NCBI RefSeq assembly: GCF_009601765.2
Contig: NZ_CP045699.1
Coordinates: 434,001-498,000 of the forward strand
Direction: 5' to 3'
DNA from: Vibrio algicola
GTDB lineage: Bacteria; Pseudomonadota; Gammaproteobacteria; Enterobacterales; Vibrionaceae
DNA length: 64,000 nt
Shown here in pieces: positions 10,392 through 21,453 of this stretch (position 1 is the stretch's first letter; every line of letters starts with the position of its first letter). A program made the translations under genes and the position numbers. The notes beneath the pieces were generated by a model. That model had not been told where the DNA came from. It saw nothing but the letters and a program-made list of their open reading frames with translations, and searched no databases.

Positions 10392-13223
10392 CTATTTACC
10401 AGTTAACAACGGCTGTAAGAAATGCGCAGTATGCGAACCTTTCACCTTTGCCACTTGTTCTGGGGTGCCACAAGCGACGATCTCACCACCGCCACTGCCA
10501 CCTTCAGGGCCCAAATCGATAATCCAATCGGCGGTTTTGATGACATCCAAATTATGCTCAATCACCACCACGGTATTGCCATGATCCCGCAGGCGGTGCA
10601 ATACCGTTAATAGTTGTTGAATATCATAAAAATGCAGACCCGTCGTCGGCTCATCTAAAATATACAGCGTTTTACCGGTATCACGTTTCGACAATTCTTT
10701 GGCAAGCTTAACTCGTTGAGCTTCCCCGCCAGATAGTGTGGTTGCCGCTTGTCCTAAGCGAATATAGGATAAACCAACATCCATTAAGGTTTTGAGTTTT
10801 CGGGCAATTACCGGAACGGGTTCAAAAAATTGATGGGCATCTTCCACTGTCATGTCTAAAACTTCATCAATACTCTTGCCTTTATAGCGTACATCTAAGG
10901 TTTCACGGTTGTAGCGTTTACCTTTACAAGCATCACATGGTACATACACATCCGGTAAAAAGTGCATTTCTACTTTTATTACGCCATCGCCTTGGCAAGC
11001 TTCACAGCGACCGCCGCGCACGTTAAAACTAAAACGACCTGGTTTATAACCGCGCGAACGCGATTCTTGAGTACCAGCAAACAGCTCACGGATCGGGGTG
11101 AAAATACCAGTATAAGTGGCAGGATTGGAGCGTGGAGTACGGCCGATTGGGCTTTGGTTAATATCGATGACTTTATCGAAATGCTCCAAGCCGTTGATCT
11201 TTTTATAAGGCGCGGCTTCGGCTGTGGTAGCACCATTTAAGCGGGCATGAGCAATTTTAAAGAAAGTATCGTTAATTAAGGTTGATTTCCCTGAGCCGGA
11301 AACCCCTGTCACACAAGTAAATAAGCCAACAGGAATCGACATATCGACACTTTTCAAGTTGTTACCGGTTGCGCCAATGATCTCGACCGTTTTCTTTTTA
11401 TCGATTGGGGTACGTTGTTTGGGGATTTCGATTTCACGCGTACCACTTAGATACTGTCCGGTTAATGATTCTGGGCAATCTAAAATATCTTGCATTGTGC
11501 CTTCGGCGATCACTTGACCACCATGAATACCCGCCCCTGGGCCAATATCAATCACATAATCGGCGGCGCGAATAGCATCTTCATCATGCTCGACCACGAT
11601 CACGGTATTACCTAAGTCGCGTAAATGAACCAAGGTTTTTAATAAACGTTCGTTATCGCGTTGATGCAAGCCAATCGAAGGTTCATCCAAAACATACATT
11701 ACCCCAACTAATCCAGCGCCAATCTGACTGGCGAGACGGATACGTTGCGCTTCACCACCAGACAGGGTTTCGGCGCTGCGAGATAAATTAAGATAATTTA
11801 AGCCGACATTAATCAGAAAACTTAAACGGTCATTGATCTCTTTTAATATTTTCTCAGCGATTTGAGCGCGTTGCCCGGTTAAGGCTAATTGCTCGAAAAA
11901 GACTAATGATTCATGAATGCTCATTTCTACCACTTGTGGCAGTGTTGTTTGACCAATAAACACATGACGGGCTTCGATTTTCAGGCGAGCACCACCACAA
12001 CTTGAACAGGTTTTATTGGAAATGTATTTGGCTAAATCTTCTCTGACGGAATTGGATTCAGTCTCATGGTAACGACGATTAAGGTTATTTAAAATCCCTT
12101 CAAAAGCATGGCGTTTAACTCGGATATCACCGCGATCATTGACGTATTTAAACTCAATTTCTTCTCGTTTGGAGCCGTTTAAAACAATCTCTCTGATTTT
12201 CTTTGGCAGCTTATTAAAAGGTTGCTTTAAATCGAATTGATAATGTTCCGCCAAGGCATTGAGCATTTGGAAATAATAGAAATTCTTCTTATCCCAACCA
12301 CGGATCGCACCATCGGCTAAGCTTAAACTGTCATCTTGGATCACCCGTTCAGCATCAAAAAATTGCTGCACACCTAAACCATCACAAGTTTCACATGCAC
12401 CGGCTGGGTTATTAAAAGAGAATAAACGAGGCTCAAGTTCACGCATGCTATAACCACAATGTGAACAGGCAAAGTTGGCCGAGAAAATAACATCTTGCTG
12501 GCTATCATCATCCATCCAGCTAATGGTGGCGGTGCCGCCTGAAAGCTCCAATGTGGTTTCGAATGATTCTGCCAAGCGTTGTTCAATACCTGAACGTACT
12601 TTAAAGCGATCGACCACCACTTCGATAGTGTGCTTTTTATGTAACTCTAAAGTCGGAGGATCGGATAGATCACAGGTTTCACCGTCAATGCGAGCTCGAA
12701 TAAACCCTTGCGCGGCTAAGTTTTGCAGGGTTTTAACATGCTCCCCTTTACGCTCTTTAATGATTGGTGCCAATAGCATTAATTTACTGCCTTCAGGCAT
12801 TTCGAGTACTTTATCCACCATTTGAGAAATAGTTTGCGCTGCTAAAGGTGTGTCATGTTCTGGGCAGCGTGGCTCACCTACTCGAGCGTATAATAAGCGC
12901 AAATAATCGTAGATCTCGGTGATGGTTCCAACGGTGGAACGTGGGTTATGCGAGGTAGATTTTTGCTCGATAGAAATAGCAGGAGATAAGCCTTCAATAT
13001 GATCGACATCGGGCTTTTCCATCAAAGATAGAAATTGACGAGCATAAGCCGAAAGCGATTCAACATAACGACGTTGACCTTCGGCGTATAAGGTATCAAA
13101 AGCAAGTGAGGACTTACCTGAGCCTGATAACCCAGTGATCACAATTAATTTATCACGCGGAATAGTGAGATTAATATTTTTTAGATTATGGGTTCGGGCG
13201 CCGCGAACTTCGATGGTATCCAT
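10392..13223 (-). CDS. uvrA: Excinuclease ABC subunit A
   Basis: The damage-sensing ATPase of nucleotide excision repair, acting with UvrB. At 943 aa it has the family length. There are two ABC modules: Walker [14 protein letters not shown] and [13 protein letters not shown], and signatures [12 protein letters not shown] and [12 protein letters not shown]. Zinc-finger cysteine pairs are CSHCGY with CETCDGLG, and CEACQGDG with [10 protein letters not shown]. The frame continues 52 codons upstream, but homology starts at [15 protein letters not shown], so the ATG at 13221-13223 is chosen. A LexA box 76 bp upstream predicts SOS induction. It lies head to tail with galU. Confidence 0.98.
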
Positions 13224-14518: not shown

Positions 14519-15166
14519 TTATAAATACAGTTGCGCCCAATTGATCGCTTGTCGTCGATTACTGACATTGATTTTTTTAAAGATGCGATAGAGATGAGAT
14601 TTGATGGTGTGTTCACTGACAAATAAAGAATCGGCAATATCCAGATTACTTTGTCCTATTTGTAAATGATTGAGGATTTCAAGTTCACGACGGGTTAATG
14701 ACAACTTAGCTGACATCAGATGTTGATTATTATGTTGGTTAATTCCTTGCCAATATTGAAATAAATTAATCAATAATTGACGAGGTAAGCGATTTTCACC
14801 TTGGTTGATATCTTTTAATGTTCGCAACATATCGAAGGTGTTAGCGTTTGATGGAAAGTATCCAGCCAGATTTTTCCATTGAGATAGCAGCAATAAGTTT
14901 GCTTGTTGCGGGGCATTAAAAAGCACACATGCGTAAGCCTGGTGGCATACCGGGTGGGTTTGTAAGTCAAACAGCTCTTGTTCAGAAAATTGACCATCAA
15001 CGAAAATGATATATTTATTCTGGCTTTGTTTTAAGTTGGCGATAGTGGTTAGGTTTAGCGTATTGACTTCAAAGTCCGTAGTGGAGAGCAGTTGTCGATA
15101 GAGTGGGTGAGTATGGAAAGCAAAAGGCGATAGAAGGTAGATAGCAGTACGGGCTAATATGGTCAT
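14519..15166 (-). CDS. qstR: LuxR-type regulator, QstR (natural competence)
   Basis: A transcription factor with a C-terminal LuxR/FixJ helix-turn-helix. LTRRELEILNHLQIGQSN then IADSLFVSEHTIKSHLYRIF lies at about residues 150-200 of 215. The N-terminal 140 residues look like a degenerate receiver domain. In V. cholerae QstR links quorum sensing and TfoX to the DNA-uptake genes. Assignment rests on length, the HTH type and its position divergent from ssb and next to galU, as I recall for V. cholerae. ATG at 15164-15166 has AGGGAG upstream. An in-frame TTG lies one codon earlier. Confidence 0.75.
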   Translation of the reverse strand: MTILARTAIYLLSPFAFHTHPLYRQLLSTTDFEVNTLNLTTIANLKQSQNKYIIFVDGQFSEQELFDLQTHPVCHQAYACVLFNAPQQANLLLLSQWKNLAGYFPSNANTFDMLRTLKDINQGENRLPRQLLINLFQYWQGINQHNNQHLMSAKLSLTRRELEILNHLQIGQSNLDIADSLFVSEHTIKSHLYRIFKKINVSNRRQAINWAQLYL

Positions 15167-16413: not shown

Positions 16414-18468
16414 ATGCGTTTGATGAGATACACCCCAACACTAAAGTTAAGTACCCGCTTGGTGGCTTTTGTCACTATGATCGTGATCACAGCAATGTTC
16501 ATCTTATTTATTGGTGGGGTATTAACCTTTCAAAAAATGGGCAATGACTACGTTGATCAAAATTTAGCTCGCCTGACCCAAGTGGTCGACAATGAACTTT
16601 CCTCATCACAAGATTTTGATTCTATTCGTCACTGGCTGCCTAAATTGCTGCAAACGAATAACGTGGTGACATTCAAACTCTCATCACCCGCGGGTGTGAT
16701 CTATCAATTTACCGATCGCGCATTAACCCAACCCTCACTGCAAGCTCAAAGTGTCTTGTTATATCAAAAGCAAATATCCCTTAATCGAAATCAAGGCTAC
16801 ATCGCAGTCTTTGAAGTTATCCCTCCTTATTCTGATAGTAGCTACTCATTTCAAGCTTTTTTCTCGTTAACTTGCGCCGTGTTGCTGGTGGTATTTTGTT
16901 TGATTCGAGGGCTTAAATGGTTGAAAGAGCAGCTATCAGGCTCTGAATTATTGGAAGAGCGTGGGCGAATGATCTTAGCGGGTCAAGTGGAGAGGTTTGC
17001 TAAAGGCGATGAAAGAGAGTGGCCCTATACCGCCAGTGAGGCGCTTGACCGATTAATTGAGGAACTGCAAGACGCACGCCAAGAAAGAAACCGTTTTGAT
17101 ACATTTATTCGTACTCATACCTTTTTAGATCAATTAACCGGTGCGGCTAATCGGATCTTATTTGACAGTAAACTCGAATCTGTATTGCAAGAAAATGGCG
17201 TGGCGGGTGGCGTGTTGATGGTGGCAATCAATGATTGGGAAGACGTAATAGAGAGCAATAATGGCCAATCGGGCGATGCCTTTTTGGTAGAAATAGGACA
17301 AGTGTTGTCAAATATTAGTCAACGCTATCCTAACTCTGTTTTTGCTCGTTATTATGACGCTCAATTTGCTTTAATGATCCCGCACCAAACCGAAAAAGAA
17401 ATCACTACCATGGCAGCGCAATGTGTCAATCAACTGAAAAAACTAACCCCATTAGAAGGGATGGAAAATGACAATTGGTGCCATATTGGTTTGAGTTTAT
17501 TCACGCAAGGTGAACGGCGAGGCAAGATTATTGATGAAGCTGAAACTGCATTAAAAGGGGTTCGTATAGAACAAGGGATCGGCTGGGGAAAATACAAAAA
17601 GCAACATAATCAACAAAATGAGCATCGTGGTGGGGTTCGTTGGAGAAATTTATTTGATCTCACTATAAATATGAACAAGATGTTAATTTATCAGCAGCCT
17701 TGTTATCTAATTGGTGGTAATGATAATAGGTCTTATAATAATGATGTGGTGGGTAATCAATATATTGTGCATTATGAATTATTCAACAGAATAAGAGATG
17801 AGGCGGGAGTTATAATTAAAGCATCACAGTTTTTAACTGCGATTGAACAAGTTGGTTACGAACGAAAATTAGACCAAGTAAATCTTGAAACAATACTGGT
17901 TCAACTTAAAAAAAATGAGACAAACTTGAATTACAGCATCAACCTTTTTGTCGAACCGTTTAAGAAGAAAGCGTATACTAGCTGGCTTAAATATGAGCTT
18001 TTACAGCTAACAAAAGACTTAAGAAGTCGCCTTGCTTTTGAGTTCGTCGAAGGCAATTTAGTTAACAATTTAGACTATATGCGTCCCATTATTAAAATGT
18101 TGGCGGGTATTGGCTGTAAAATCATTGTCGACCAAGTCGGCAGAACGATTGTTAGTACGCACTACGCGAAAGATTTACCAGTGACATATTTAAAATTACA
18201 CCGAAGCCTCATTAAACAAATTAACCTTAGAAATGAAAATCAATTATTCATTCGCAGTTTATTAGGCTCATGCAGTAATACTAATATTAAGGTTATTGCC
18301 GTAGGTGTAGAAAATGAACAAGAATGGATAGTATTAAAAAAACTTGGTTTACATGGTGGTCAAGGGCGATTTTTTGCATCTGAATCTTGTCTTTCTCCAT
18401 TGGATGACTTGCCAAAAGAAAAGCCAGTAAAATTAGTCACGCCAGGGCGCAGAAATCGCTGGCGATAA
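16414..18468 (+). CDS. mshH: MshH / CsrD-like degenerate GGDEF-EAL membrane protein
   Basis: In enterobacteria CsrD promotes turnover of the CsrB/C regulatory RNAs by RNase E. The Vibrio counterpart heads the MSHA locus. At 684 aa it has a first membrane helix at about residues 14-36, a periplasmic segment, and a second helix at about 147-168. A GGDEF-like domain (about 235-385) has YYDAQFAL where GGDEF should be. An EAL-like domain (about 405-665) has QQP where EAL should be. Both active sites are therefore degenerate, as in CsrD. The start may be ATG 16414 or ATG 16423; GGA at 16411 fits the second. It is the only complete gene left of the msh region. Confidence 0.85.
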   Translation: MRLMRYTPTLKLSTRLVAFVTMIVITAMFILFIGGVLTFQKMGNDYVDQNLARLTQVVDNELSSSQDFDSIRHWLPKLLQTNNVVTFKLSSPAGVIYQFTDRALTQPSLQAQSVLLYQKQISLNRNQGYIAVFEVIPPYSDSSYSFQAFFSLTCAVLLVVFCLIRGLKWLKEQLSGSELLEERGRMILAGQVERFAKGDEREWPYTASEALDRLIEELQDARQERNRFDTFIRTHTFLDQLTGAANRILFDSKLESVLQENGVAGGVLMVAINDWEDVIESNNGQSGDAFLVEIGQVLSNISQRYPNSVFARYYDAQFALMIPHQTEKEITTMAAQCVNQLKKLTPLEGMENDNWCHIGLSLFTQGERRGKIIDEAETALKGVRIEQGIGWGKYKKQHNQQNEHRGGVRWRNLFDLTINMNKMLIYQQPCYLIGGNDNRSYNNDVVGNQYIVHYELFNRIRDEAGVIIKASQFLTAIEQVGYERKLDQVNLETILVQLKKNETNLNYSINLFVEPFKKKAYTSWLKYELLQLTKDLRSRLAFEFVEGNLVNNLDYMRPIIKMLAGIGCKIIVDQVGRTIVSTHYAKDLPVTYLKLHRSLIKQINLRNENQLFIRSLLGSCSNTNIKVIAVGVENEQEWIVLKKLGLHGGQGRFFASESCLSPLDDLPKEKPVKLVTPGRRNRWR

Positions 18469-18518: not shown

Positions 18519-18812
18519 ATGAGTATGAACTCATTAATACAAAGATTGACCGCAAAGAAGAAAGAAAAACCGACGCTGAGTATTGTAATACTCAGTGATG
18601 GTATTTATGTATCTAAAGTGAGCGAAGAATTCGGTATTGAACCTGCCGTTTTCTTTGAATTAGAAAATAATAATTGGCAATTCCAATTAGGTGCAGCGCT
18701 CGATAGCGAAGACATCAGTAACCTAAAAGCAACCGTCACGCTGGGCTCTCAGTTTTATCAAAGCTACCAATTGGACAAACCTGTAGTACCAAAAGAAGGC
18801 TTTGTTGCGTAA
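18519..18812 (+). pseudogene. mshI: mshI N-terminal fragment cut by an IS element
   Basis: About 93 native codons start at ATG 18519 (MSMNSLIQRLTAKKKEKPTL), 50 bp after mshH. They are followed by four codons from the IS end (GFVA) and a TAA inside the terminal repeat. Identity is inferred from position (mshI follows mshH in Vibrio) and from a PilM/MshI-like opening with a basic N-terminus and an SIVILSDGIYVSKV strand. The rest of the gene is missing. A frame open to 18486 offers an upstream GTG-region start, which is less likely. The product would not be functional. Confidence 0.7.
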
Positions 18813-19563
18813 TTCAAATTTAGAGGTGACAACACTAGAATGGTATTATTTCAATCAATTCGGTAAGTTTTAGGCATACCTAGCCCTGTTAGTTTATTTA
18901 AAGCTTTGATCATTGCGTAAGCTTCCCCAACTTGGGCATTATAATTTCTTAAGCTGAGTGTTCCGCCCAATAGCTTTTTCACTCGATGCATTGCCGTTTC
19001 TGAAATTGACCTTTTATGATACCCAAACCGTGTTTTCCACTGCTTATTAGAACCATAAAACTGTTGAAACCCGACGGATAAATTTCGTGGATGTCCCTTT
19101 TCTCAAAAGACTGCACCAAGTCTTGGAGGCACAAGTGGGGTGGCTTTTTTGATACGAATGGCTTCATAGCATTGTCGAGTATCGTAAGCACCATCGCCTG
19201 ATACTTTTAAGATCTTTCGACGTGTTTGCTTTAGTAAATTAGGTAGAATGTCTCCGTCACTGACATTCGAGAAAGTGAGTTCTGCCGCAATAATTTCATG
19301 AGTAACGACATCAACACCTATATGTAACTTACGCCAGATCCGGCGCTTCCCATCAGTTCCATGTTTCCTGACTTTCCATTCTTGGATAGCTTCTTCATCA
19401 ATCCAGAAAGTCAGTGAACCACGTTTAATCAGTGATTGATTATATAACTTCCAGTTTTTGGTCTTATAACGAGGTTTTGGCATGAATATCGATGGTTTAG
19501 TGGGGAGTAAACGATCTGATCGTCAGTTTCACATTTAGTTCCATCGAATTACGCAACAAAGCC
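18798..19563 (-). mobile_element. Defective IS5-family (IS903 group) insertion sequence
   Basis: Perfect 18-bp terminal inverted repeats are GGCTTTGTTGCGTAATTC (18798-18815) and its complement (19546-19563). They share their first 10 bases with the IS903 ends I remember. The element is 766 bp, against about 1057 bp for the group. The difference matches a missing internal part of the transposase. The 9 bp outside the ends differ (CCAAAAGAA and AGTTACCGA), so there is no target duplication. Confidence 0.9.
18851..19483 (-). pseudogene. IS903-type transposase, internally deleted and carrying a stop codon
   Basis: Starts MPKPRYKTKNWKLYNQSL, typical of IS903 transposases. After SLTFWIDEEAIQEW it jumps in frame to KVRKHGTDGKRRIWRKLHIG. 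Roughly 97 codons are skipped, including the first catalytic Asp region (AIDATGLKVYG in the family, from memory). The second Asp (VSGDGAYDT) and the Glu (HKRSISETAMHR) remain. A TGA at 19103-19105 stands where the family has Trp (FWEKGHPRN). The same frame then continues to LTGLGMPKTYRID and a stop at 18851. It is inactive. Confidence 0.9.
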
Positions 19564-19564
19564 A

Positions 19565-20239
19565 GTTACCGATCCAACGGAGGATAATGTTAATTTTGAT
19601 TTTGATGCTAATACAAATGGTAATGAAAGCTTTATAGTTCCAGACGATGCAGACGATGCAGACGATGCAGATGATGATCGCGCTATGCCATTTGATACTG
19701 CTCCTGATTTCCGTTATGGCCGCATGACATTGGATAATGTCAGTGGCCCGCAAGGTGGTTCGGTCCAAGTTCCGTTGCGCGCTGAGTACTGGAATGGTAA
19801 GTCTTTTGTTCGCAATGAAGACGATAGCGGCAGTGATTTTGATGCCAGTATTTATTGTGTGATGAGCAATGTAGAGAATAGCAGCGCAGCGTTAAGCAGT
19901 GATCCAGAAGGAGTGGAAAGCGTTGTGACTGGTAGCAGTGATATTGTTAATGCTGAACAAGCCAATAGTCAGCGTGAAATGGCGCGAATATTTTTACGTC
20001 AAGGCGATGACTCGATAGGGATGAACAGCGCTTTGCCTTTACCCGACGCTACATTAAATCAAACCCAGTGTGGTGACTGGAGTGCCAAAAGAGACGATGA
20101 TGAACAAGCTCAACCTTGGCTACAATTTAACTGGCGTAACTTGGGGGATGAAGACCCATCGACGGTGGTGAACTTTGGTGCTTACCGAGGTAACGACCGA
20201 ATAATTTACCGTGGTGAGCCGAACTTAATTGCCTATTAA
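19565..20239 (+). pseudogene. mshQ: mshQ C-terminal fragment
   Basis: About 224 codons, open from the IS end with no native start. It begins VTDPTEDNVNFDFDANTNGN. An Asp-Asp-Ala run (three copies of a 9-bp unit at 19643-19669) follows, then RYGRMTLDNVSGPQGGSVQV then PLRAEYWNGKSF. It ends VNFGAYRGNDRIIYRGE. These are the hallmarks of the C-terminal domain (DUF6701-like) of MshQ, the large MSHA surface protein. mshQ normally sits directly upstream of mreB, as here. An internal ATG at 19685 could give a 184-aa product, but no signal peptide remains. Confidence 0.8.

Positions 20240-20316: not shown

Positions 20317-21453
<1,137 letters not shown>

Follow-up and report, generated by a model that had tools for sequence, protein, structure and literature searches.

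An IS-associated deletion of the MSHA pilus locus in Vibrio algicola and broken msh loci among its closest relatives

What became of the MSHA type IV pilus genes of Vibrio algicola, of which two fragments lie between csrD and mreB, and how were the others lost? The window analyzed here is a stretch of 64,000 nucleotides (positions 434001 to 498000 of contig 1, which has 2,518,765 bp) from a 3.51-Mb genome that is assembled in 3 contigs and is 99.98% complete.

The csrD-mreB junction and its content in relatives

The left boundary gene, csrD (mshH; 16414 to 18468, forward strand), is complete, as a preliminary description of the DNA had proposed, and codes for a 684-aa protein with GAPES4-GGDEF-EAL domains that scores 721 bits against the NCBIfam CsrD equivalog model NF008281 (cut-off 663). 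It is followed by a 5′ fragment of mshI (18519 to 18797, forward strand) containing codons 1 to 93 of about 484, identified by tblastn with MshI of a close relative, genome G081 (66% identity). Homology runs from codon 1 to codon 93 and stops at 18797, an IS5-family insertion element begins at 18798, and the mshI frame reads for 4 codons past the left edge of the element to a stop at 18810 to 18812. The element spans 18798 to 19563 and contains a reverse-strand transposase remnant (19103 to 19483) of 126 codons. To its right is a 3′ remnant of mshQ (19564 to 20239, forward strand) with the last 224 codons and the stop, recognized by tblastn and by Pfam DUF6701, the end of which it contains; it is in frame again from 19565 and has no internal stop to 20239. 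This is about 15 to 21% of the length of MshQ in intact relatives (1084 to 1451 aa), in line with the third or less estimated at the outset, and the remnant lies beside mreB (20410 to 21453, forward strand), the intact right boundary gene. Both remnants sit in their expected place between csrD and mreB, and the anatomy first read from the sequence, including the break in mshI after about 93 codons at an IS end, is confirmed as real.

A search with the 97-aa product of the mshI stub had five candidates and returned three proteins. One is the window's own, one is a 53-residue piece of identical sequence on another contig (31,450 bp), and one is a relative's protein with 57% identity and a different ending. 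A public protein of 116 aa (P0003) has the sequence of G081 MshI over its first 45 residues and then a different ending; a frameshifted mshI may be present in a strain close to an intact-locus species.

Relatives illustrate the usual content of the interval. G081 and V. rumoiensis 1S-45 (G173) have a complete csrD-mshI-J-K-L-M-N-E-G-F-B-A-A2-C-D-O-P-Q-mreB series (loci L112 and L113, respectively), with about 18.5 kb from csrD to mreB, and the gene names are assigned by the gene order of V. cholerae. Pfam matches of 10 proteins of the G081 locus fit these names, with a PilN-like MshI, a PilO-like MshJ, a secretin, and AAA and TPR proteins, together with further matches to T2SSE with MshEN, T2SSF, N-methyl pilins, and DUF6701. 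Genomes G209, G128, and G069 also have mshI to mshQ, with mreB further on, such that 5 of the 10 nearest genomes keep mshI to mshQ in the interval, with csrD and mreB outside it, and the content first presumed normal for Vibrio is seen in all five. The positions matching the edges of the window's IS are about 17.4 kb apart in G081 and V. rumoiensis, with mshJ to mshP in between.

Some of these loci have other features. Two mshQ-like genes are in tandem in G014 (L104/L105), G209 (L114/L120), G128 (L115/L121), and G069 (L116/L122), whereas G081 and G173 show no such duplication. In Vibrionales bacterium SWAT-3 (L103), the mshI match starts at 12022 and the mshJ match at 14810, about 1.3 kb more than in relatives, and an insertion within or behind mshI is possible.

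The genome-wide search proposed with the first reading of the locus found no orthologue of mshA, mshE, or mshL in the three contigs and, with five relatives intact, bears out the loss of the locus. None of the six T2SSE proteins is an MshE orthologue; by size, identity, and neighbourhood, they are EpsE-, PilB-, PilT-, and PilU-like, with a further two encoded on contig C3. The best matches to G081 MshE are the EpsE-like (47%) and PilB-like (37%) proteins, compared with 81 to 95% for the other four intact relatives (G081 being the source of the query). Three secretins are present, the best scoring 132 bits against the MshL model TIGR02519 (cut-off 250), and MshA yields two weak matches, one of 31% over about 95 residues (25 bits) and one of 53% over 36. 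MshG, MshJ, MshK, MshM, MshN, and the minor pilins are absent from the locus itself.

Pilus genes outside the msh locus were also noted in relatives. There are MshA-like pilins at G109:C2:829400-829849 (48%, with one internal stop) and G173:C24:80056-80436 (58%), and a PilU-like match at G109:C1:2085040-2085849 has three internal stop codons, so that G109 may be losing a further pilus ATPase.

Broken and intact loci in one small clade

The clade sample contains the V. algicola genome and the nine nearest by CsrD (63 to 74% identity; the next has 58%), with one genome per species, and the msh locus is broken in 5 of the 10 (V. algicola, G206, G109, G014, and G119). Four of the junctions are readable and all differ, two of them being without an IS; the fifth, in G119, runs off contig ends. 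V. algicola is organized as mshI, IS, and mshQ. In G206 (Vibrio sp. S17_S38), mshM is fused to the tail of mshA, the two homologies being about 20 bp apart, which leaves no room for an IS, and there is a stop at codon 315 of mshI and a frame break in mshJ. G109 has mshJ directly joined to the tail of mshQ and an mshI with stops at codons 52 and 234. G014 has mshI to codon 330, then transposase-like frames (recognized by eye), and then mshC to mshQ; a further frame of this kind interrupts the first mshQ. In G119 (V. hibernica B1.19), the frame of mshI is broken, and the sequence stops within mshK at the end of one contig and starts inside mshQ on another; neither MshL nor MshE was found in its assembly. 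None of the five broken genomes has MshE, and in the four whose junctions are readable MshG is gone as well, along with the locus pilin MshA in whole or in part.

A tree built from six downstream proteins (2820 columns, LG+F+I+G4, with G003 and G093 as outgroups) has the topology ((V. algicola,(G206,G119)),(((G109,G069),((G209,G128),G014)),(G081,G173))), with ultrafast bootstrap values of at least 99 at every node, and intact and broken genomes are interleaved on it. By hand count, this topology requires at least three losses if there was no regain: one in the group of V. algicola, G206, and G119, one in G109, and one in G014.

Phages, niche, and drift are possible causes of the repeated loss. 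Recurrent negative selection on the MSHA pilus in this clade, with at least three independent losses made with and without an IS, is a tentative reading. If it were true, the losses of MshE, MshG, and MshA would be as expected from MSHA-dependent (for example, filamentous) phages or from a niche without MSHA-dependent attachment, and the clade would repeat in nature the laboratory finding that exposure to filamentous phage yields MSHA mutants. Among the titles and abstract openings of the open-licence literature, no report of MSHA loss in this clade was found, a weak negative result. IS-associated loss of a pilus locus is an already known kind of event, and the part worth following is the repeated and structurally different losses inside one small clade.

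The insertion element and the route of the loss

The element at the junction has 18 identical bases as terminal inverted repeats, and its transposase remnant is over the cut-off for PF01609 (Pfam DDE_Tnp_1) and scores 130.7 bits, just below the cut-off of 140, against NF033579 (IS5 family transposase). At 766 bp it is a deletion derivative of a 1054-bp element, with 288 bp missing between two 10-bp repeats, CTTTCCATTC, which flank the deleted part as direct repeats in full copies and of which one (19372 to 19381) marks the scar. The genome has 13 other two-ended copies, 8 of them of 1054 bp and 7 of these with a 306-codon transposase frame; none of the 13 has the 766-bp length. The copies, compared in one re-oriented alignment that includes the 13 except L133 and L136, are near-identical, with shortened forms of 705, 794, 804, 454, and 270 bp. 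They differ at too few positions for the parent copies of the junction IS to be named, and no pair reached 7/9 in a search for an inversion through flanks swapped between copies. The 454-bp form (L012; C1:2506508-2506961) is a non-autonomous derivative with exactly the same 288-bp internal deletion plus one more, and with a duplication matching at 8/9 positions. It has no derived base in common with the junction copy where both are readable, and with the 10-bp repeats flanking the deleted part, transposition of an already deleted element and repeated slippage both fit.

Members of the IS903 subgroup make a 9-bp target duplication. The flanks at the junction agree at 2/9 positions, and the absence of a duplication noted in the preliminary description is thus true as a fact; as evidence it is not diagnostic, since none of the 13 other two-ended copies (a count that omits the fragments L134, L135, and L137, with one end or none) has an exact duplication either, the closest being one at 8/9. 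Exact 9-bp duplications are present in 2 of 5 related plasmid copies (L128 and L130), and the element probably makes them, with the copies in the V. algicola genome no longer showing them. A full copy without a duplication (L003, the sole copy so tested) has flanks that are collinear in both sister species except for a short intergenic difference, so a missing duplication alone does not imply a large deletion. With the 13 copies, the five plasmid copies, and L003 as controls, target duplications are uninformative as a test of mechanism.

The breakpoints are better evidence than the missing duplication for the proposed involvement of the IS. Recognizable mshI reaches the IS end on the left, at codon 93, and on the right the alignment begins with the very first codon of mshQ beyond the IS in L104, L114, L115, and L121, and no later than the seventh in several other relatives, even though the stretch beside the IS is acidic and variable. 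Since both breakpoints coincide with IS ends, and a chance insertion exactly at a scar would be a coincidence, the IS is the likely agent. It is highly probable that this IS5-family (IS903-like) element caused, or was one end of, an msh deletion of about 17.4 kb after which no MSHA pilus is possible. Measured on G081 and V. rumoiensis, the deletion would run from mshI codon 94 to about the last fifth of mshQ and would have removed mshJ-K-L-M-N-E-G-F-B-A-C-D-O-P whole. Either an IS copy in mshI and a second in mshQ would have recombined with each other, or a single copy would have made an adjacent deletion; both routes fit and are not distinguishable here. The leftovers, a stub of mshI and a tail of mshQ without a start, would be non-functional, and no MSHA pilus could be built because the extension motor MshE, the secretin MshL, and the pilin MshA are missing.

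Several successive steps are nevertheless possible in the window's loss, and an IS is not required for losing the locus, because the deletion joints of G206 and G109 have no room for one. The locus could have decayed stepwise, with a lesion in the ancestor of V. algicola, G206, and G119 and the IS-bounded deletion coming later in an already dead locus, which has somewhat less than an even chance of being right; it is compatible with an IS-made final deletion, and the odds of the two overlap. All three genomes of this subclade lack MshE, and decay without selection would be expected to produce lesions such as the mshM-mshA deletion of G206's own, its mshI stop and mshJ frame break, and the frame break near codon 180 of mshI in G119. 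No lesion common to the three was found, the mshI breaks of G206 and G119 being at separate codons and the deletions not sharing their edges, although the part of the locus in which a common lesion would be visible is gone from the window. The same IS-free joints in G206 and G109 lend some plausibility to illegitimate recombination having deleted the locus, with the IS inserting at the scar afterwards, but this is improbable: a later insertion should leave scar sequence on one side, where the IS ends coincide with both breakpoints, and a young insertion should carry a 9-bp duplication, as in two of the five plasmid copies. An assembly artefact at a repeated IS might be suspected of an element present in many copies and has almost no likelihood here. 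MshE, MshL, and MshA do not reappear elsewhere in the genome, sister species are without the same genes, and the 3 contigs, the 99.98% completeness, and a length of 766 bp that is unique among two-ended copies argue that the junction is not a collapsed repeat. A deletion made or bounded by the IS is thus the preferred explanation.

Expected phenotype and the wider genus

V. cholerae without mshE is reported to lack surface pili, mutants in mshA or mshE are severely attenuated in monolayer formation, and surface attachment and biofilm formation are described as requiring MSHA (PMC7096442). MSHA is also reported to be a receptor for fs1, VGJ, and other filamentous phages (PMC3731265), and msh mutations are reported in 8 of 12 phage-resistant, phage-free clones of V. 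alginolyticus (PMC9532999). From the missing MshE, MshL, and MshA, we infer that the window's strain would be without MSHA pili, as predicted, and resistant to phages needing them. It need not be unpiliated, because the genome still has a PilQ-like secretin and PilB-, PilT-, and PilU-like ATPases, together with a type IV pilus-like cluster on contig C3 (52.8 kb; L138:3179-16149). That cluster has a secretin, two T2SSE ATPases, and a trypsin-like protein, as well as a T2SSF-like platform protein and a PilS-like pilin that are both just below cut-off; it could partly replace the lost pili. With half of its members intact and half broken by different lesions, the clade is a natural comparison of the cost and benefit of the MSHA pilus.

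Across 227 Vibrio species genomes, MshL (E up to 1e-60) is present in 196, of which 195 pass the curated cut-off; MshE (E up to 1e-150) is likewise present in 196, with 11 of the negatives in each set inferred by elimination. Only two genomes separate the sets, G206 with MshL alone and G129 (79% complete) with MshE alone. Surveys of a single gene can mislead, as G206 has a full MshL and scores as MSHA-positive with its motor gene gone. Both proteins are lacking in 30 of the 227 genomes, 4 of which are in this clade; the 26 of 217 outside it include two genomes of about 1 Mb and G217 (73% complete), and these observations are not independent. MSHA loss thus occurs elsewhere in Vibrio.

A survey of 46 named csrD loci, extending up to 10 kb downstream and with matches to MshA, B, C, D, O, and P dropped because prepilins cross-match, shows mshE downstream in 35. 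The 11 without it include one of S17_S38, those of V. hibernica, V. lentus, and V. madracius, in which the contig ends early, and those of V. ruber, Vibrio sp. MEBiC08052, and V. proteolyticus, which have mreB in place of msh. The remaining records, from V. variabilis, V. thalassae, and V. maritimus (two), have neither the searched msh genes nor mreB within 10 kb (L080, L084, L098, and L101), and the locus is arranged differently in these records.

The IS903-like copy on a V. harveyi plasmid (NZ_CP150472.1) has the same ends, 1054-bp length, and 306-codon transposase as the full copies in V. algicola, with about 72% DNA identity, but it has an exact 9-bp duplication, whereas the junction copy has none and is 288 bp shorter. 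Compared with the MSHA type IVa pilus locus of Vibrio, the window has the same boundary genes in the same orientation, and what remains of mshI and mshQ lies at the expected ends, but it has lost all sequence from codon 94 of mshI up to the last 224 codons of mshQ and is not a functional member. In V. ruber, MEBiC08052, and V. proteolyticus, the msh locus is likewise absent between csrD and mreB, the gap being about 200 bp in the first two and about 970 bp in V. proteolyticus. In these three, neither mshI nor mshQ has a match at E up to 1e-8, whereas the window retains the IS along with both remnants, and it therefore looks like an earlier stage toward a bare csrD-mreB junction.
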